From NCBI RefSeq assembly GCF_021742065.1, contig NZ_JAKKIE010000008.1, forward strand, positions 1 to 64,000: DNA of 64,000 nucleotides. The letters are read 5' to 3'. The translations under genes were made by a program, and so were the position numbers. The notes beneath the pieces are model-generated. The model was not told the origin of the DNA. It did no database searches and saw only the letters and a program-made list of their open reading frames with translations. This stretch comes from Rhizorhapis sp. SPR117. Lineage in GTDB: Bacteria; Pseudomonadota; Alphaproteobacteria; Sphingomonadales; Sphingomonadaceae. This document shows, piece by piece, positions 12,579 through 24,743 of the stretch (within the stretch, counting starts at the first letter, position 1; every line of letters begins with the position of its first letter).

Positions 12579-13208
12579 ATGCTATGCCACCAGTCCCGAA
12601 ATGTCACGAAAGTGCATCTGCCCCGTCTCTGGCTGATGAGTGATGAACGCATCAACGATGAAGCGCTATTGGCAGCAGTCAAGCGCCTGCCCCGCGGCGC
12701 AGGAGTCATTTTCCGGCACTATGGCTTGTCACAATCCGCAAGACGATCATTATTCCTTCAAGTGCAGAGCATCACGCGGCGCCGAAAGCTTATTCTGGTT
12801 ATCGCGGGGTCGGAACGTCTGGCACTTGCATGGAAAGCCGATGGTTTTCACGGGCGAACCCTGCACAAATCCCAACATCGCCATTTGATTCGAACGGCTC
12901 CCGTCCATGACCTGATCGAAATCTGCCAAGCGGAACGTTCGGGCGCGCACCTCCTGTTCTTGTCTCCTCTTTTCCCTACACGATCACACCCGCAGGCGAC
13001 GGAATTAGGGCGGGTAGAATTCGCCTTTCTTGCGCGACAGGCACGGCGACCTGTCGTTGCGCTGGGCGGCATGACGGCAATACAAGCAAAGATATTGCGG
13101 CAATTAAACGCTTACGGGTGGGCTGCAATCGATGGATTGAGCAAAACGGAAATGAAGGGCAGTCAGATGCCCTCTCCACTCAAACGGAGGCAAACCATAT
13201 CGAGCTGA
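12579..13208 (+). CDS. Thiamine phosphate synthase-like (TenI/ThiE fold) protein
   Basis: A 209-residue TIM-barrel protein starting near LPRLWLMSDERIND, a pattern common in sphingomonad thiE-like proteins. It has LLFLSPLFPTRSHP and VVALGGM, matching the phosphate-binding end of ThiE/TenI. The ThiE pyrimidine/diphosphate motif (usually GVHLGQxD) is replaced by GFHGRTLHKSQ, and the usual TxTK segment is absent, so catalysis of thiamine phosphate formation is doubtful. No TPP riboswitch is visible upstream. Its last 46 bases overlap the end of parB on the other strand. The ATG at 12636 is an alternative start but would remove conserved residues. Confidence 0.7.
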   Translation: MLCHQSRNVTKVHLPRLWLMSDERINDEALLAAVKRLPRGAGVIFRHYGLSQSARRSLFLQVQSITRRRKLILVIAGSERLALAWKADGFHGRTLHKSQHRHLIRTAPVHDLIEICQAERSGAHLLFLSPLFPTRSHPQATELGRVEFAFLARQARRPVVALGGMTAIQAKILRQLNAYGWAAIDGLSKTEMKGSQMPSPLKRRQTISS

Positions 13209-14083
13209 TCCAGATTGGAATAACCCAGCGTCAGCGTTCCACCACTGCCCTTGTGATGAATCTGGACATGTAGACCCAACAGGTCAGAGAGATGTTGTTC
13301 AAGCGCGGTCAAATCGGCATCATCCCTGCGCGGCGGCTTTTGGGAAACCTTGTTGTTGCGCACTGGCTTCGCCTGCTTTGCCAGTTTTTCTGTTTCTCGA
13401 ACCGACAGACCCTTTTCCACCACGATCCTGGCCAGGGCTTCGCAATCGGGAGCGCCAATCAAGGCGCGGGCGTGCCCCATATTCAGCTCACCGCGCGTCA
13501 CCATATACTGCACCTGGGATGGCAGATCGAGCAACCGCATAAGATTGGCCACATGGCTGCGCGATTTGCCGACAAGGCGTCCCAGCGCGTCCTGACTATG
13601 ACCGAATTCAGCTATCAGTTTCCGATAGGCCTCCGCCTCTTCAATGGGATTGAGATCTTCGCGCTGAATATTTTCAATGAGCGCGATTTCCAGCGTTTCG
13701 GTATCGCTGAAATCCCGCACGATGGCAGGAATGCGATGCAATTGCGCCCGTTGCGCTGCACGCCAGCGACGTTCGCCGGCGACAATTTGATACCCTCTAT
13801 CCAGCGGCCGAACGATGATGGGCTGAATAACGCCGCGCCGCGAAATACTGTCAGCCAGTTCAGCCATCGCATCGGCATCAAAATGTCGACGCGGCTGCTC
13901 GGGATGTGGAGAAATCATAGATATATCAATACTTTGTATCGATTTTCCTGAGGAACCTGACGGTGTTCCAACAGGCTCTTCACGCGCCACGTCACCCAGC
14001 AGCGAATTGAGGCCCCGGCCAAGACCCGATACCCGGCGAAGCGGCTTTGCAACCTTTTCGCCTGTCTTGTCCGCGTCGCTCAT
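13163..14083 (-). CDS. parB: Chromosome partitioning protein ParB
   Basis: A 306-residue CTP-dependent DNA clamp that loads at parS and spreads around the origin. An N-terminal LGRGLNSLLG (about 21-30) is the ParA-contact segment. The ParB/Srx-like CTP-binding domain has GERRWRAAQRA (103-113) and ENIQREDLNPIEEA (137-150). The helix-turn-helix SQDALGRLVGKSRSHVANL (about 163-181) reads parS, and the C-terminal 50 residues form the dimerisation domain. It is translationally coupled to parA (ATGA overlap at 14080-14083). Three parS sites lie 0.8-3.3 kb upstream. Confidence 0.97.
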   Translation of the reverse strand: MSDADKTGEKVAKPLRRVSGLGRGLNSLLGDVAREEPVGTPSGSSGKSIQSIDISMISPHPEQPRRHFDADAMAELADSISRRGVIQPIIVRPLDRGYQIVAGERRWRAAQRAQLHRIPAIVRDFSDTETLEIALIENIQREDLNPIEEAEAYRKLIAEFGHSQDALGRLVGKSRSHVANLMRLLDLPSQVQYMVTRGELNMGHARALIGAPDCEALARIVVEKGLSVRETEKLAKQAKPVRNNKVSQKPPRRDDADLTALEQHLSDLLGLHVQIHHKGSGGTLTLGYSNLDQLDMVCLRLSGEGI

Positions 14084-14865
14084 GCGGCTATATCCCGCAT
14101 AGGCGGGAGCCGCCCGATCAGCTCCCGCGCCAATTGCATATAAGCCTCCGACCCGGAACAGCGATAATCATATATAAGCGCCGGTAAGCCATGACTCGGG
14201 GCTTCCGACAGACGCACATTTCGGGGAATGACGGTATCGAACACCACATTGCCAAGGCACGCCCGCACATCGTCGGACACCTGTTCCGTCAAACGGTTGC
14301 GCCGATCATACATGGTCAGAGCAACTCCCAATATGGAAAGATTTGGATTGAAACGACCGCGAATTCGCTCAACAGTTTGCAGTAGCTGACTAAGCCCTTC
14401 CAGCGCAAAAAACTCGCATTGTAGCGGGACCAGCAACGATTGTGCCGCGACCATCGCGTTTACGGTCAATAGCCCAAGCGAAGGCGGGCAATCGATCAGA
14501 CAAATATCCCAGCGCCCTTCAGGTGCCTGGGCAAGACCGTGATCGAGTCGATGCGTGCGTTCTTCATAGTCAATCAGTTCGATCTCCGCCCCCGACAAAT
14601 CCTGCGTCGATGGGATGATATCGAGATTGGGAACCCGCGTTGCGATAACCGCTTCAGCCAGACCGCACTCTCCGGTGAGCAAATGATAGCTTGACCAATC
14701 GCGTTCAGCCTGGCCGACGCCCAGCCCAGTTGACGCATTACCTTGCGGATCGAGGTCGACAAGCAAGGTTTTCCATCCGGTCGCGGCGAGCGCGGTGGCC
14801 AGATTGATAGCAGTGGTGGTTTTGCCCACACCGCCCTTCTGGTTTGCAACTGCCAAGCGTATCAT
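14080..14865 (-). CDS. parA: Chromosome partitioning ATPase ParA
   Basis: A 261-residue deviant-Walker ATPase that moves ParB-parS complexes along the nucleoid. The Walker A KGGVGKTT is at 10-17 with the signature lysine, the A' motif LVDLDPQGNAS is near 36-46, and Walker B LIDCPPSLG lies near 120. The chromosomal type is indicated by the short N-terminus, with no helix-turn-helix domain. It overlaps rsmG upstream and parB downstream by four bases each, so rsmG-parA-parB are translated as a coupled unit. Confidence 0.97.
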   Translation of the reverse strand: MIRLAVANQKGGVGKTTTAINLATALAATGWKTLLVDLDPQGNASTGLGVGQAERDWSSYHLLTGECGLAEAVIATRVPNLDIIPSTQDLSGAEIELIDYEERTHRLDHGLAQAPEGRWDICLIDCPPSLGLLTVNAMVAAQSLLVPLQCEFFALEGLSQLLQTVERIRGRFNPNLSILGVALTMYDRRNRLTEQVSDDVRACLGNVVFDTVIPRNVRLSEAPSHGLPALIYDYRCSGSEAYMQLARELIGRLPPMRDIAA

Positions 14866-15494
14866 TTTCTGCCCCTTTTCCGGACTGACCGGCCCAGCAA
14901 TATAGCGCTTTCCGGATCAGTGATACTCGGTTCCACGTGAAACAGCCCCTGCCACGCGGGTCGCACCTGTTGCAATTCATTCTGGCAATTTTTGCCCTTT
15001 GGCAAAAGCCAAATCGTTCGGTCACTCGAGAATCTGACCGCTTTTTCAAACAATCTGTCCAACGGTGCGAAAGCACGAGCGCTGATGACCGAGACCGGGG
15101 CCGTAACCTCAAGCGACTCCAGACGCAAACCATGCACCGTTACCCGCGTCAATCCGAGCTCCACAATAACATGGTTCAAAAATGCAATGCGCCCTTTACG
15201 GGACTCGACCATTTCAACGCACCAGTCACTCAAAATGCCTATGACAATAGCTGGCAGACCTGCGCCCGATCCAAGATCAAGCCATGTGCCGCCATCATTA
15301 TCCGGGGCGTGGCGCAGGAGCTGAGCGCTATCGACAATGTGGCGCGCCCAGACATGATCACGGGTCGACGCAGCGATCAAATTTTGCTGCTGCATCCCCT
15401 CCAGAAGAAGCTCAACATAGGCCGTCAGCCGATCCATTGTTTCACGTGAAACACCAGAATCGTCCAACCAGAGCTTCGCGTCATCCTCAGTCAC
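14862..15494 (-). CDS. rsmG: 16S rRNA (guanine-527-N7)-methyltransferase RsmG
   Basis: A 210-residue Rossmann methyltransferase (formerly GidB) that methylates G527 of 16S r[19 protein letters not shown] is the SAM-binding glycine-rich loop, [15 protein letters not shown] the ribose-binding acidic strand, and [13 protein letters not shown] the catalytic region. Two parS sites lie inside its coding sequence: one encodes VSRET near residue 15, the other HVE near the C-terminus. It overlaps mnmG by four bases upstream and parA by four bases downstream. Confidence 0.96.
14929..14944. other. parS site, within the 3' part of rsmG (14/16)
   Basis: The core CACGTG (14934-14939) and the right half AAACA match the alphaproteobacterial/Bacillus parS consensus TGTTTCACGTGAAACA; two bases of the left half differ (first T to G, fifth T to C). 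It is the site closest to parAB. Confidence 0.75.
15438..15453. other. parS site, within the 5' part of rsmG (16/16)
   Basis: An exact copy of TGTTTCACGTGAAACA. On the minus strand it encodes the residues VSRET of RsmG, a segment seen in the same place in many alphaproteobacterial RsmG proteins, as expected if the site constrains the protein. Confidence 0.95.
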
Positions 15495-17353
15495 GCAGCC
15501 TTCCGTCTCGCGTGAATCAAGATGGCGGCAAGAGCGGCTGGCGTGATCCCACGGATGCGTCCGGCCGATGCAAGCGTTTCGGGTGCCGCCGCTTCAAGGC
15601 GCTCTATCATTTCAATCGATAGGCCAGCGACCGTCCGATAATCAAGGGATGCAGGAAGGTGGACTGCCTCATTAGCGCGTAACGTTCGGATCTCCGCTTC
15701 CTGCCGCTCCAGATAGGGCGCATAATGCGCGTCTTCAAAGATTTCATTGCATAGATCGATGGGCAGGTCTGCCATCTCTGGAACATGTTCCGTAAGTTGC
15801 GCCAGCCCAACTTCCGGGAAGCGGGCCCATTCAAATAGCGATCGACGCGACCCATCCTGCCGCACAGCGCAACCGAGCTTCATCATTTCGGAAGCAGTCA
15901 CCACCCGATGCAGCAGCGCTTTAATCGCCGATCTCGCATCGGTCCTGTCCTTGAACCATGCATGTCGCTGCTGGCCAACCACGCCATGCGCGATACCCAC
16001 CCCCGTCAGCCGGGTACACGCATTGTCGGCACGCAGGCGTAAACGGTATTCTGCGCGGGCGGTTAGCATACGGTAGGGTTCGGTCACTCCCTGCAAAGTC
16101 AGGTCGTCGATCATCACTCCAATATAACTGCTTACCCGGTCAGGGATAAGAGCGTCTTCCCCTCGGGCAAAAGCCGCAGCATTGATACCGGCGACGAGCC
16201 CTTGCGCTGCGGCCTCCTCGTAACCCGTCGTACCGTTGATCTGGCCCGCGCAATAAAGACCTGGAATGCCACGCACCGCCATACTGCTGTCGAGTGCGCG
16301 CGGATCGATATGGTCATACTCGACAGCATAGCCGGGAACGACGATCACCGCGGCCTCCAGACCGGCCATGCTGCGGATCATGCTTTCCTGTATGTCGACT
16401 GGTAATGATGTGCTGATGCCGTTGGGATAGACGAGGTGGTTATCCAATCCCTCTGGTTCCAGAAAGATCTGATGACCATCGCGGTCTCCGAACCGAAAAA
16501 TCTTGTCCTCGATGGAAGGACAATAGCGCGGCCCCCTCCCCTCTATCGCTCCGCTAAATAATGGTGAGCGATCAAGGCCAGTCCGGATGATCTCGTGGGT
16601 GCGTTCATTAGTTCGGGTGATCGCGCAAAATATCTGGGGCAAAGGGCGCCGCGAAGTCAGCGCCGACATTGTCCATTCGCCACTATCGGACGGCTGTTGA
16701 GGCAATGCAGCCCAATTGATGGTGCGGCCATCGATCCGGGGCGGCGTACCTGTCTTCAATCGGCCAATGGGCAGGCCAGCATCCCGAAGCTGTTGGCCCA
16801 GAGTGACGGCTGAACGCTCGCCGGTCCGTCCTCCAGAAGCGACATCCTCTCCGCGGAAAAGCTTGCCGTTCAGAAAGGTTCCTGTCGCCAACACAATGGA
16901 TGACGCTGGCAGAACAGAACCATCGGCGAGGCGCAAGCCGCTCACCCGTCCACTGTTTATATCCAGCGCCACAACTTCGGCTTCGATGATCTCCAGTCCC
17001 TGCTGCGCGTCGAGCAGCTCATGTATGGCAGCCTTGTAGCGCTTGCGATCCGCCTGAATGCGCGGACCCTGCACTGCCGCCCCCTTGCTGCTGTTGAGCA
17101 TGCGATAGTGGATGGCCGCGGAATCTGCTGCTCGCGCGATCAGGCCGTCAAACGCGTCGACCTCGCGGACCAGATGTCCCTTGCCTAAGCCGCCAATCGC
17201 CGGGTTGCAGGACATTGCACCGATCGTTTCCCGGGAGAAACTGACGAGCGCCGTGCGCGCGCCCTTGCGCGCAGCAGCTGCGGCAGCTTCACAACCGGCA
17301 TGGCCTCCGCCAACCACAATCACGTCAAACATCGTCCGCATAGCGGCGCTCAT
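15491..17353 (-). CDS. mnmG: tRNA uridine-5-carboxymethylaminomethyl(34) synthesis enzyme MnmG
   Basis: About 620 residues, FAD-dependent. With MnmE it installs the cmnm5 group on wobble U34. [16 protein letters not shown] near the start is the FAD dinucleotide fold; [28 protein letters not shown] and the [13 protein letters not shown] VPGYAVEYD are family motifs, and a helical C-terminal domain ends the protein. The open frame reaches a GTG at 17404, but family members start just before FDVIVVGGG, so I take the ATG at 17353; ATGs at 17341 and 17332 are alternatives. With this start, a parS site lies in the 47-base gap to mnmE. Confidence 0.96.
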
Positions 17354-17380
17354 ACCTAATTTAATTCCTTGGGTCAAAAT

Positions 17381-17396
17381 TGTTTCACGTGAAACG
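17381..17396. other. parS site between mnmE and mnmG (15/16)
   Basis: TGTTTCACGTGAAAC followed by G instead of A. It lies between the mnmE stop and the preferred mnmG start, or encodes VSRET at the very N-terminus of MnmG if the GTG at 17404 is used. Confidence 0.92.
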
Positions 17397-17400
17397 TCTC

Positions 17401-18702
17401 TCACTTTCCGATGCAGAAAGAACCAAAAAGCGTATTCAGCATGTCTTCTGTACTAGCCCGACCCGTTACCGCGTCGAGTGCAGCCCGAGCCACCCGCAGA
17501 TGTTCTGCAACAGCCAAATAATCACTCGTTTTCATGCCCATCGCAAGTTCATGCTTCAACTGCGTCAGCGCCACGCGCTGACGCTTGTTCAGAGCGTATT
17601 CCCCGTCACGAGGCAACAATGTTTGCGCACGTTCGACAAGCATTTTTTGCAGCACACTCATCCCCTCGCCCGTTAAGGCCGACAAGCTGATGTCAGATTC
17701 CGGATACGCCCGCTCTCCAGGCAAGTCAGACTTCGTCTCTATACGGATCAACCGGTCTACGAGATCTTGCGGACATAATTCCGGCGGCCCCAGCCATAGA
17801 ACGATATCACCTTCCACCATGGCGCGACGGGCAAGGTCTATGCCAATGCCTTCGATCTCGTCACCGCTTTTATCCCGCAAGCCTGCAGTATCCGTGACGA
17901 GAAAAGGGAAACCTCCAATAGCGACCGGCACCTCGATCCGATCCCGGGTCGTCCCGGCAATGGGGGACACAATGGCTGCATCACGCCCAACCAACGCGTT
18001 GAGCAAAGTCGATTTACCAGCATTAGGGGGGCCAGCCAGCACCACGCGAACACCGTCGCGTAAACGCTCCGCAGTCGGACGCAGCAGTTCGCCTTCTATT
18101 TCCGCTACTATCCTGCCAAGCGCCTCTGCAACCTTTTCCTCGGCACTCCCCGACACATCGTCTTCATCCGAAAAATCCAGCTCGGCCTCAACCAGGGCGG
18201 AAATCCCAAGTATATCTGTCTGCCACTGTGCGACTCGCCTTGAAAAATAACCCTCTGCCATTGCAATAGCGCTACGGCGCTGCGCTTCGGTTTCGGCAAA
18301 AAGCAGATCAGCAAGACCTTCAGCCTCACTTAAGTCAATTCGTCCATTTTCAAAAGCACGACGCGTATATTCTCCGGGCAAAGCTTCTCGCATGCCGTCC
18401 TGCCCCGCCAACGCGGAAATCACTGCCTGAACTACCGCCCGACCACCATGCAAATGCAGTTCGGCTAGATCTTCTCCTGTAGCGGTATCAGGTCCCGGAA
18501 ACCACAGCACCAACGCGCGATCCAGATGCTCCCCGGTAGTCGGATGACGCAGTGTCCGCACACTTGCCCTGCGCGGCAATGGCAATTTCCCGGCCATCGA
18601 TTTCACTGCCATGGCAGCCAGCGAGCCGCTTATTCTGACTATGGCAATGGCGGCAGGCGGCATCCCGCTCGATAGAGCGAAAATGGTGGCGCGCTCCGTC
18701 AT
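17401..18702 (-). CDS. mnmE: tRNA modification GTPase MnmE (TrmE)
   Basis: 433 residues. An N-terminal tetrahydrofolate-binding domain (about 1-120) is followed by a helical domain with an inserted G domain: G1 GPPNAGKS (224-231), G2 Thr in IAGTTRD (248-254), G3 DTAG (271-274). The C-terminal CIGK (430-433) holds the conserved cysteine. It partners MnmG in making cmnm5U34 and dimerises in a K+-dependent way. It is the first gene of the mnmE-mnmG-rsmG-parA-parB run, 31 bases downstream of a DUF6489 gene. Confidence 0.97.
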
Positions 18703-22134: not shown

Positions 22135-22578
22135 TCAGAAGGGCCGAACGATGGCAAGAACAACAATGATCGCCGCCAATATCCCGGGGGCCTCATTCCA
22201 CATCCGCAGCTTCTTGTCGTTAAAGGGCCGCAAGCCTGCCGCGAGCTTCTTTGAATAACCAACCGCCCAGCCATGATACCCCGACAGAACCAGCACAAAG
22301 AATAATTTGGCATGAAACCAGCCCTCGGCCCAGGCATTGGTATGAAAAGCCAGCATCAAACCGAAAACCCACACGATGATCAACGACGGGTTGAGGATGA
22401 TCTTGCGTAATCTCCCTTCGCGCCGAATCCATTTCTGTTCTTCATCCGAACCAACCGCGCATTCCTGATGATAGATGAAAAAACGCGGCATCATGAAAAG
22501 GCCCGCCATCAAAAAGATGACGAAAATGATATGACCTGCAAGAACCCAGAGATAGGCGTTGCCGAGAAAACCTGTCAT
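22135..22578 (-). CDS. hemJ: Protoporphyrinogen IX oxidase HemJ
   Basis: A 147-residue four-helix membrane protein that oxidises protoporphyrinogen IX, the penultimate haem step in many alphaproteobacteria. WVLAGHIIFVIFLMAGLF contains the conserved histidine in helix 1, and the FHAKLFFVL segment contains the conserved lysine. It lies directly after hemE with a four-base overlap (22575-22578), supporting the haem assignment over a generic CopD/DUF2269 protein. Confidence 0.92.
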   Translation of the reverse strand: MTGFLGNAYLWVLAGHIIFVIFLMAGLFMMPRFFIYHQECAVGSDEEQKWIRREGRLRKIILNPSLIIVWVFGLMLAFHTNAWAEGWFHAKLFFVLVLSGYHGWAVGYSKKLAAGLRPFNDKKLRMWNEAPGILAAIIVVLAIVRPF

Positions 22579-23612
22579 TTGTCCTCCTTGCGGACTAATT
22601 TTATCAGCATTTCAACATGTTCGATCGGCGTATCCGGCAATATCCCATGGCCCAGGTTAAAGATATGCGGCCGATCCACAAATGCCGACACAATATTTTC
22701 GGTCGCAGTTTTCAATGCCTCACCACCTGCAATCAACGCGAGGGGATCCAGATTGCCCTGTACCGGAAGTCCTTTTGGGAGAACCTGGTTTGCCCAATGC
22801 GGATCCACGGTTTCATCAAGACCAATGGCATCCACGCCTGTTCCCTGCGCATAAGCAGCCAGTTTTCCGCCGGCGCCCTTTGGAAAACCAATGATCGGGA
22901 TTCCCGGGCAGCGAACCCGCAATTGCTCCACAATGGCGCGATTTGGCTCAATTACCCATTTATCGAATTCAAGTGGGGACAGACTGCCCGACCAACTATC
23001 AAATAATTGAATAGCTTCGACCCCCGATTCCACTTGCCCGGCCAGATATTCAACCGTCAGATCAATGATCGCATGAATGATTTTGCCAAAACGCACAGGA
23101 TTGCCGTAAGCCAGACGACGAGCCAATCCATGATCCTTGCTGCCTGCGCCAGCGACCATATAGGTCGCCACTGTCCATGGGCTTCCAGCGAAACCCAGAA
23201 AAGTGGTATGTTGCGGTAATTCCGCCTTCACCAGCTTTACAGTTTCATAAATTGGTGCAAGCTTTTCCCGGCGCAAAGTCAGCCCGGCAAGGTCATTTTC
23301 GCACAGCGGCGGCGCAAGCCTTGGCCCCTCTCCCGCCTCGAACCACAAATCCTGCCCGAGCGCATAAGGGACGATCAATATGTCGGAAAACAAGATCGAA
23401 CCGTCAAAGCCGAAGCGGCGAAGCGGCTGCAATGTGATTTCTGCTGCCGCTGGACTGTCGTAGACCAGCTCCAGAAATCCACCCTTTTCAGTACGCAAAG
23501 CGCGATATTCCGGCAGGTAGCGTCCGGCCTGCCGCATCAACCACAAAGGCGGAATGTCCAGTTTTTCGCCATGCAGTACGCGTAACAATGTCTGGGCGTT
23601 CGGGTCAGTCAA
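22575..23612 (-). CDS. hemE: Uroporphyrinogen decarboxylase
   Basis: 345 residues. It decarboxylates the four acetate groups of uroporphyrinogen III to give coproporphyrinogen III. PPLWLMRQAGRYLPEYR (about 21-37) is the diagnostic N-terminal motif; FSDILIVPYALGQ, GFAGSPWTVATYM and NLGHGILPDTP follow in order. The start codon is TTG, preceded by GAAGGAA about nine bases upstream; no better ATG exists. Translationally coupled to hemJ. Its start faces the DnaA-box-rich gap, as in Caulobacter and Rickettsia where hemE borders the origin. Confidence 0.97.
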   Translation of the reverse strand: MTDPNAQTLLRVLHGEKLDIPPLWLMRQAGRYLPEYRALRTEKGGFLELVYDSPAAAEITLQPLRRFGFDGSILFSDILIVPYALGQDLWFEAGEGPRLAPPLCENDLAGLTLRREKLAPIYETVKLVKAELPQHTTFLGFAGSPWTVATYMVAGAGSKDHGLARRLAYGNPVRFGKIIHAIIDLTVEYLAGQVESGVEAIQLFDSWSGSLSPLEFDKWVIEPNRAIVEQLRVRCPGIPIIGFPKGAGGKLAAYAQGTGVDAIGLDETVDPHWANQVLPKGLPVQGNLDPLALIAGGEALKTATENIVSAFVDRPHIFNLGHGILPDTPIEHVEMLIKLVRKEDK

Positions 23613-23918
23613 CCAGGGTGTTCCTTCTTCACTATAATCTTAAAAGAATGATATAAGGATAGATGATGATAGTAGGTTCATGGAAGAGCGGGGTTTATGC
23701 GTTAAGCCCGCTCTTGCCAACAGCTTGTCTCAAAGAGGATGAAGATTCAGAGGCGAGTCTCGTCGGCTTTCCACGTTACACACAGGCTGTGGGTGAAATA
23801 ACCAAGCTGTAGACGAGCTGTGGACAAAAATCCGGTCAGCGCACATGAAAATTTCCGTACCGCGGTAGTAGCATTCTATCCCTTGCTTTATGCACAACCT
23901 ATCCACAAAGATGTCGGG
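23613..23918. other. oriC: Putative chromosomal replication origin (oriC)
   Basis: A non-coding 306-base gap between divergent hemE and ppsR. It holds an AT-rich stretch (about 23632-23676) and DnaA-box-like 9-mers: TTATGCACA (23888-23896, fits TTATNCACA exactly); CTATCCACA (23899-23907) and, reversed, TTGTCCACA (23819-23827), each one base from TTATCCACA; and weaker TTACACACA (23776-23784) and reversed TCACCCACA (23788-23796), each two bases off. Location beside hemE with parS sites 6-9 kb away matches the known origin layout of Caulobacter and relatives. A single GANTC site (about 23744) is present; I found no TTAA-N7-TTAA CtrA site. Confidence 0.8.
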
Positions 23919-24743
23919 ATGACGCGGCTTCACCTTCATCTTTTGTCCGACTCAACAGGCGAAACATTGGAAAATATCGCCAAGGCGGCGATCGCGCAGT
24001 TCGACAATGTCGAAACTATCCGGCATTTCTGGCCCATGGTTCGGTCCGAAGTTCATCTGGAACGGATACTGGAGGAAATTTCCCAAAATCCCGGGCTGGT
24101 CCTTTTTACGCTGGCTAACCAGCAATTGCGACGAAAACTGGAAAATCGTTGTCGCGCCTTCGGGCTTCCGATCGTTGCCGCGCTGGATCCGGTGATGGAT
24201 GCCATGTCCAACATATTGGGACAGGAAACGCGAAATCGCACGGGCCGCAAATATATTATGGACGATGCCTATTTTGCCCGGATCGACGCTATTCAGTTCA
24301 CGATTGCCCATGACGACGGCGTCAATTGGGAAAATTGGGAAGAGGCGGATATACTTCTTGCCGCTGTATCGCGTGCATCAAAGACGCCGACGTCAATCTA
24401 TCTCGCCAATCGCGGCTACAAGACGGCGAATATTCCACTGGTGCCGGAATCTCCGCCCCCGCCCTCTCTCTTTACGTTGAAACACCCCTTGATCGTTGGC
24501 CTGACCACCAGTGCCGATCGATTGATCCAGGTACGGCGCAATCGACTTTTATCGCTGAACCAGGCACCCGAAACGACCTATGTCGATCAGGAAAAGGTCA
24601 AGGAAGAAGTGGCATTCGCCCGACGGATATTTGCGGATAATGGCTGGCCGGTGATCGATGTCACGCGTCGATCGATCGAAGAAACAGCCGCTGCGATTAT
24701 CAATATATACAACGAGCGGTATATCGCTCAAGCTGACGGCTGA
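23919..24743 (+). CDS. ppsR: Pyruvate, water dikinase / PEP synthase regulatory protein (bifunctional kinase-pyrophosphorylase)
   Basis: 274 residues, DUF299 family. LHLHLLSDSTGETLENIAKA opens the protein, and VSRASKTPTSIYLA is the conserved nucleotide-binding segment before GYKTANIPLVP. Family members phosphorylate and dephosphorylate a threonine of PEP synthase or PPDK using ADP and phosphate. The ATG at 23919 (MTRLHLHL) is chosen; the upstream frame from 23820 crosses DnaA boxes and is not conserved-looking. It is the first gene of ppsR-maf-aroE-coaE-dnaQ, the gene order that follows oriC in Caulobacter. Confidence 0.95.
   Translation: MTRLHLHLLSDSTGETLENIAKAAIAQFDNVETIRHFWPMVRSEVHLERILEEISQNPGLVLFTLANQQLRRKLENRCRAFGLPIVAALDPVMDAMSNILGQETRNRTGRKYIMDDAYFARIDAIQFTIAHDDGVNWENWEEADILLAAVSRASKTPTSIYLANRGYKTANIPLVPESPPPPSLFTLKHPLIVGLTTSADRLIQVRRNRLLSLNQAPETTYVDQEKVKEEVAFARRIFADNGWPVIDVTRRSIEETAAAIINIYNERYIAQADG

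Follow-up and report, generated by a model that had tools for sequence, protein, structure and literature searches.

Organization of the hemE-ppsR Locus

The window, i.e., the whole stretch of 64,000 nucleotides analyzed, contains a 306-bp intergenic gap (23613..23918, no strand) that was annotated as oriC from its borders, its boxes and its alignment with relatives. It is flanked by hemE on the minus strand (uroporphyrinogen decarboxylase, TTG start, 22575..23612; URO-D, 3.1e-110) and by the PPPase gene ppsR on the plus strand (23919..24743; Kinase-PPPase, 3.4e-93), a kinase-pyrophosphorylase gene of the COG1806 border type. The ATG start of ppsR at 23919 was picked by homology, and the listed open frame extends back to a GTG at 23820. 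The original prediction had placed a replication origin between these two genes, and its borders proved exact, with the genes divergent. Past ppsR lie the genes for Maf, shikimate dehydrogenase, dephospho-CoA kinase and an exonuclease. Beyond hemE there are a UPF0093 gene, which we take to be hemJ-like, rho, a TerC-family gene and a dienelactone hydrolase gene, followed by mnmE, mnmG, gidB, parA and parB, the last five spanning 13163-18702.

According to the gene calls, parB and parA occupy 13163..14865 on the minus strand, at a distance of 8.7-10.5 kb from the gap. A pattern search of the window retrieved three parS-like sites, all on the plus strand, where 0.17 would be expected: one with the exact consensus (15438..15453), one with a single mismatch (17381..17396) and one with two mismatches (14929..14944). 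These sites lie 6.2-8.7 kb from the gap, so the parAB genes and three parS sites announced at 6-14 kb are indeed there. Rfam models applied at gathering thresholds retrieved nothing in the window.

DnaA Boxes and the AT-Rich Tract

Next to hemE, the gap carries an AT-rich tract (23625..23674, no strand; 76% AT), which is a likely duplex-unwinding element (DUE). No other 50-mer of the window is as AT-rich as the one starting at 23625 (0.76). Measured as a 30-mer the tract is tied, 13 segments being at least as rich, and as a 100-mer it is not at the top, with 249 segments at least as rich; the AT-rich element of the original prediction is therefore real at the 50-mer scale and not at the 100-mer scale.

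The five DnaA-box-like 9-mers that had been reported were all recovered. Two of them carry two mismatches, namely TTACACACA (23776..23784, plus strand) and TCACCCACA (23788..23796, minus strand), while TTGTCCACA (23819..23827, minus strand) and CTATCCACA (23899..23907, plus strand) are one base off TTATCCACA, and TTATGCACA (23888..23896, plus strand), likewise with one mismatch, fits TTATNCACA. With up to two mismatches allowed, for which the chance is about 0.0009 per position and strand, a box occupies the aligned position in 73/76 gaps for 23776, 29/76 for 23788, 51/76 for 23819, 18/76 for 23888 and 67/76 for 23899. In addition, a weak box position, TCGTCTACA (23808..23816, minus strand), has three mismatches counted by hand and the consensus CTGTGGA in relatives. 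A worn DUE-proximal position (23679..23687, minus strand), with four mismatches by hand count, can be assigned with low confidence in the window.

Single boxes in the window are at background level, since TTATNCACA occurs once vs. 1.13 times expected and one-mismatch boxes 12 times vs. 8.31; no perfect TTATCCACA is found among the boxes of the window. The clustering, in contrast to the individual boxes, exceeds chance. The three one-mismatch boxes of the gap fall within 89 bp, and in 300 first-order Markov simulations of the 64-kb window three such boxes within 306 bp arose once and within 100 bp never. Exact TTATCCACA counts were also tried as an origin finder and rejected: they amount to 7-11 per genome in four relatives, and they are useless alone because they fall below the reversed-pattern control (9-20) in all four.

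Conservation Among Relatives

Relatives were collected in one scan with the PPPase protein, and the best 80 of 120 stretches encoding a relative were used; those named to genus are, we presume, Sphingomonadales. The closest PPPase among these best 80 of 120 is that of Rhizorhapis suberifaciens (93% identical), by which the window is assigned to a sphingomonad. Divergent hemE and PPPase genes were found in 77/81 loci, window included. The fetched DNA of the other four (L017, L029, L058, and L066) gave no hemE match; L058 comes from the record of Sphingobium SYK-6, which is interrupted at the origin, and L029 lies at the end of a contig. The same arrangement was present in 70/82 loci sampled across the class Alphaproteobacteria.

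The gap measures 274-411 bp in 76 of the 77 loci and 525 bp in L044, which was left out of the alignment, so that the latter comprises 76 gaps (the window and 75 relatives). One locus of the order sample (L207) has a hemE-PPPase gap of 973 bp, three times the usual length, which carries extra sequence. Across the 76 gaps, one-mismatch boxes average 2.49 per gap, vs. 0.035 per 306-bp piece in 2909 pieces of flanking DNA, and in 67/76 cases no other piece of the locus equals the gap in boxes. Read from the hemE side, the aligned order is the AT-rich tract, a trinucleotide element, a weak box in TGTGGATAA orientation, CGGGG, the near-invariant GCCAACAGCTTGAC, a GANTC site, the main boxes and PPPase. 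The DUE-proximal weak box, worn in the window, reads CGTGGA in many Sphingomonas loci and CTGTGGA in Novosphingobium loci, and TGTGGA directly follows the trinucleotide repeat in 12/28 order-sample loci. The full CtrA site TTAAN7TTAA occurs in 0/76 gaps, and not even a one-mismatch CtrA site lies within 5 kb of the gap in the window.

GC Skew

The cumulative GC-skew minimum of the window lies at 24578, 660 bp from the gap, and the skew is -0.054 left of the gap and +0.023 right of it. In the finished SYK-6 chromosome, 11/11 sampled 20-kb stretches between 0 and 2.12 Mb were positive (one by only 0.0001) and 8/9 between 2.31 and 4.01 Mb were negative, the exception being the one at 2.94 Mb (+0.006). 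The skew therefore switches near the hemE/PPPase junction, at position 1, and near 2.2 Mb; dnaA of SYK-6 is located at 309 kb. A skew minimum had been anticipated at the gap, and both the minimum of the window and the chromosome-wide switch in SYK-6 agree with that expectation. Locally, however, the skew near the gap is blunt in two relatives, which counts against an origin. The SYK-6 cumulative curve is flat outward from the origin, with no upturn within 80 kb; its lowest point is at the far edge (+79 kb). In a 200-kb stretch of R. suberifaciens, the minimum is about 39 kb off the gap, one side being flat (-0.0007) and the other +0.019. Among the literature matches listed, no marker-frequency or DnaA-binding experiment was found for the organism of the window or another sphingomonad. 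For Hyphomonas neptunium, a marker-frequency maximum near hemE is described in the cited text (PMC6650430).

The GCCAACA Element

The alignment of the gaps revealed a near-invariant element, TGCCAACAGCTTGTC (23715..23729, plus strand), which may be IHF-like. GCCAACA followed by G or T was found in 67/76 gaps, the other nine comprising three close variants and six without it, all Novosphingobium. In the class sample, a loose form was retrieved from 1/70 gaps, and that one is sphingomonad-like by its PPPase; judging from the gaps compared, the near-invariant GCCAACAGCTTGAC element, which was added by the comparison, appears only in sphingomonads. Exact copies of TGCCAACAGCTTG number one in SYK-6, at the origin, and two in strain QA11, one of them at the origin, while none was found in four other relatives tested, including R. 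suberifaciens, the copy of which differs in the first base. Two further uses of the element were rejected. As a genome-wide marker, GCCAACANNTTGAC matches in 56/118 order genomes, mostly away from the origin; it stands just upstream of PPPase in only 11/118, and its frequency elsewhere is close to that of a reversed control pattern. As a 5-4-5 palindrome, the element fails in the Novosphingobium sequences, which are not palindromic when read without removed columns.

As for a protein that might bind there, TGCCAACAGCTTG keeps CAA-N4-TTG of the IHF consensus, without its WATC start. The consensus with up to two mismatches has 584 matches in the window vs. 581 expected, i.e., chance level, and among relatives several have lost TTG although the CA within N4 persists, in contrast to the free N4 of the IHF consensus. 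The left half of E. coli oriC has the same order of AT-rich tract, TGTGGATAA-orientation box and CAACA-containing site, the last being the IHF site GATCAACAACCTG, as given in the cited part of PMC4285127. By hand comparison, 8/13 bases of the two sites are alike, the ATC core is not kept in the sphingomonad element, and the distance from box start to site start is 36 bp here vs. 27 bp in E. coli. The putative protein at the TGCCAACAGCTTGAC site could be IHF or another one, and the IHF reading is possible.

GANTC Sites

The window has just two GANTC (CcrM-type) sites, GATTC at 23744..23748 and GAGTC at 23755..23759 (both from the pattern, no strand), and a GANTC begins at the column of the latter in 64/76 gaps. 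Their density in the gaps is 12.95/kb, vs. 2.66/kb over 91 other intergenic regions and 2.37/kb over the flanks as a whole, while nine other five-base palindromic patterns range from 1.26 to 4.79 per kb in gaps. There are 4.05 sites per gap vs. 1.36 expected from Markov shuffles, with an excess in 76/76 gaps. The order sample gave 4.19 vs. 1.29 expected, above expectation in 27/27 gaps, the 973-bp gap being left out and some genomes possibly being among the 75 relatives. Our contribution is confined to the magnitude of this excess in sphingomonads, because GANTC sites in Caulobacter origins (PMC3973325) and a GANTC rise around ori in four orders (PMC9836097) are already reported in the cited passages.

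It could be argued that the origin is gated by CcrM methylation of these sites, as a counterpart of the Dam/SeqA control of E. coli oriC. The above excess and the shared column are in favor of this, as is the RAMA-domain (CcrM-type) protein found in R. suberifaciens and SYK-6. However, we consider such gating unlikely. The window itself carries two sites only, the pattern is in print for Caulobacter and around ori in four orders, and in the class outside sphingomonads the excess is small and alike with or without a RAMA hit (2.4 vs. 1.77 expected in 60 gaps, 34 of them above, with a hit; 2.56 vs. 2.04 in nine gaps, five above, without), one genome's hit below the curated cut-off being counted as present. 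Furthermore, in Agrobacterium an altered CcrM level had no significant effect on the DnaA-dependent ori1, according to the cited part of PMC11514494.

The Trinucleotide Element and DnaA

Beside the AT-rich tract, the alignment exposed a three-base-periodic element, AGGATAGATGATGATAGTAGGT (23656..23677, plus strand), which is placed like DnaA-trios and is untidy in the window. Read 3'-5', its box-proximal end is GAT GAT, i.e., canonical trios by the worn box, followed by a one-base slip, and tidy trio rules fail. Among the 76 gaps, lag-3 identity in the segment aligned to 23656-23677 is 0.476 vs. 0.246 at lags 2 and 4 and 0.299 when shuffled. Two consecutive 3'-G(T/A)(T/A)-5' occur in 74/76 gaps vs. 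16 shuffled, and NAN three times in 18/76 vs. 9 shuffled; G-led A/T triplets have a central T in 186 cases and a central A in 52. Runs of five G-led triplets are present on the hemE side of 36/69 class gaps (shuffles 10.5%), at a median location 14% into the gap. In these 36 gaps the preceding 30 nt are AT-rich (0.68), the next 40 nt contain a TGTGGATAA-type box with up to three mismatches in 29 (reversed pattern, 8), and GGGGAT lies in the following 40 nt of 17.

When only the leading G is required, the central base in the class is A 0.32, T 0.35, G 0.26 and C 0.07 (shuffled: A 0.23, T 0.30, G 0.24, C 0.24), and in sphingomonads A 0.19, T 0.50, G 0.26 and C 0.05 (shuffled: A 0.25, T 0.27, G 0.20, C 0.28).

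A rather improbable explanation, though one to be taken seriously, is that the element is AT-rich DNA with chance or coding-like periodicity, for instance the 5' end of a longer hemE, and no unwinding motif. Five G-led triplets were also found in 31/124 strand-stretches of other intergenic DNA of the loci, well above the 10-12% of shuffled gaps. Moreover, 14 of the 36 class loci have no in-frame stop between element and hemE start, and the window's own best G-led run (4/5) sits elsewhere, at 23730. On the other hand, the hemE frame of the window does have such a stop, runs of four NWG triplets occur in 24/69 class gaps vs. 3/70 (top) and 6/70 (bottom) hemE coding flanks, and six other segments reach a lag-3 identity of only 0.25-0.32. 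The strand asymmetry of the five-triplet runs is strong, with 36/69 top vs. 5/69 bottom in the class and 36/76 vs. 2/76 in sphingomonads; it is weak in the order sample (5/27 vs. 2/27).

The element resembles the DnaA-trios of Bacillus subtilis in being a G-led three-base repeat by an AT-rich tract, apparently on the matching strand and beside an oriented DnaA box, as far as the cited parts of the two accounts go (PMC8287927; PMC10721633). The center there is A, while here it is often T or G. The published rule, a box with up to two mismatches within 16 bp of three NAN (PMC8287927), matches the mirror strand about as often here: 25/69 vs. 33 in the class, 16/76 vs. 16 in sphingomonads and 6/27 vs. 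4 in the order sample. In the window, its match nearest hemE falls on the box at 23819, at a distance from the AT tract; when three mismatches are allowed, it falls within the trinucleotide element, on a box at 23654. With GAN three times in place of NAN, the rule matched 0 class, 0 sphingomonad and 1 order gaps. With GTN three times, the counts are 9/69 vs. 1 mirrored (class), 6/76 vs. 1 (sphingomonads) and 1/27 vs. 0 (order), and with G(A/T)N four times 8 vs. 0, 3 vs. 1 and 2 vs. 0 in the same samples. Allowing the box three mismatches, NAN gives 43/76 vs. 22 mirrored and 20.8 in shuffles for sphingomonads and 15/27 vs. 8 for the order, strand differences that speak against the re-coded reading considered below; for the class it gives 43 vs. 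48, i.e., no strand difference. No account of trios in alphaproteobacteria was found among the literature matches listed, although the tables of PMC8287927 may list alphaproteobacterial origins. In addition, trios lacking a central adenine were already suspected by the authors of that survey, as stated in the passage cited (PMC8287927).

The contacts in question are described for B. subtilis DnaA, where Asn187 bonds the central adenine and Arg202 and Glu228 bond the leading G, and where changing the center from A to T or G slows the origin more than A to C (PMC10721633). None of these residues is universal, but their properties are generally maintained in the homologues aligned in the cited part of that study (PMC10721633). 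We aligned DnaA of 64 relatives, including L261 from the order sample and leaving out L282 and L294, which gave no reading frame. Positions were numbered from chain 8btg, presumably B. subtilis DnaA. Asn187 is replaced in 62/64 of these relatives: position 187 holds Tyr 27, Phe 4 and His 2 times in 33 class proteins, and Val 13, Phe 6, Leu 5, Tyr 2, Asn 2, Met 2 and Ile 1 time in 31 Sphingomonadales, with Tyr in R. suberifaciens. Lys in place of Arg202, with Glu183 and Glu228 kept, was found in 64/64. E. coli DnaA has Gln at 187 and likewise Lys at 202, and in the printed alignments position 187 is Asn and Gln in two further solved chains, which we take to be from Thermotoga and Aquifex. From these residues, it appears that the guanine contacts broadly keep their chemistry, while the adenine contact does not.

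We thus propose, tentatively and with more doubt than confidence, that alphaproteobacterial origins may use a re-coded basal unwinding system. The trio would read 3'-G(T/A/G)(T/A)-5' instead of 3'-GAT-5' and an aromatic or aliphatic residue would replace Asn187; in sphingomonads the pocket would be mostly hydrophobic and the center mostly thymine, initiator and origin having co-evolved a new single-strand code. However, SYK-6 speaks against the idea in its simple form, since its DnaA keeps Asn and its repeat is T-centered; within clades, the central base and residue 187 vary too little to reveal a link. The G-led runs in other intergenic DNA, the fact that relatives are not independent and the untidy element of the window itself also count against this reading. 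A class in which both the repeat and the recognizing residue differ would lend itself to a direct swap experiment. The mechanisms by which DnaA recognizes and melts bacterial origins are still under study, and this comparative result may carry more weight than the origin itself.

Against PF00308, sphingomonad DnaA (L263-L265, L297-L324) mostly scores 162-197 bits and the class sample mostly 213-243 bits; DnaA of the sphingomonad type varies at the initiator-specific motif.

Interpretation as a Chromosomal Origin

The site, its boxes, the AT-rich tract, their conservation and the skew are direct observations. Taken together, they suggest that the gap between hemE and ppsR is almost certainly where chromosome copying starts. 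The function that we infer agrees with the original prediction, being supported by the skew and by a gap and boxes kept in 75 relatives. In all likelihood it is a sphingomonad oriC with boxes on the ppsR side, melting by hemE and segregation by parABS; binding, order of events and roles of the elements we infer. DnaA would bind the clustered boxes on the ppsR side (23776-23907), and the conserved TGCCAACAGCTTG element, situated between the boxes and the melting site, is probably the target of a protein with an architectural or regulatory role. Starting at the weak DUE-proximal position, a DnaA filament may then extend over the trinucleotide element (23656-23677); the AT-rich tract on the hemE side would melt, the helicase would be loaded there and two forks would leave, while parABS, 6-10 kb away, would segregate the new origins.

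The gap is a hemE-type alphaproteobacterial oriC, a kind already described for Sphingopyxis. The original prediction had pointed to known hemE-adjacent origins, and this is borne out by Caulobacter crescentus Cori, which lies between hemE and COG1806. Cori and the Rickettsia origin share with the gap the flanking genes, several DnaA boxes and an AT-rich tract (cited parts of PMC1914354). However, the Caulobacter subtype has CtrA sites, of which the sphingomonad gaps are devoid, Cori measures 404 bp vs. about 300 bp for the gap (PMC1914354), and sphingomonad boxes are closer to TTATCCACA than to the Caulobacter TGATCCACA (PMC4285127). The Sphingopyxis oriC, from the same bacterial family, has the hemE border, conserved DnaA boxes and a putative DUE, and is predicted rather than mapped; the cited text of that account, its additional file aside, does not mention the GCCAACAGCTTGAC element, GANTC density or trios (PMC4741004). 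As an origin the gap is ordinary and useful mainly for annotating and numbering the genome. Our comparison appears to have added three things, namely the near-invariant GCCAACAGCTTGAC element, the dense GANTC sites and a strand-specific three-base repeat, the center of which is T no less often than A.

It is very improbable that the gap serves hemE and ppsR solely as a divergent promoter region, in which box-like sequences would regulate the two genes, and that the true origin lies elsewhere. DnaA can serve as a transcription factor, and a TTGCGCTAGCG-type stretch just upstream of ppsR, kept in many relatives, looks promoter-like. Nevertheless, the skew switches at the hemE/PPPase junction, several box positions and the AT-rich tract keep a fixed order in 76 gaps, and the origins of Caulobacter and Hyphomonas are located here according to the cited passages (PMC1914354; PMC6650430). 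Promoter and origin can also coexist, so the above stretch is compatible with an oriC in the gap.

Finally, the box at 23899 begins 20 bp ahead of the ppsR start codon, beside the promoter-like stretch kept in relatives (23888-23919), and because of this position initiation and ppsR transcription may interfere with each other.
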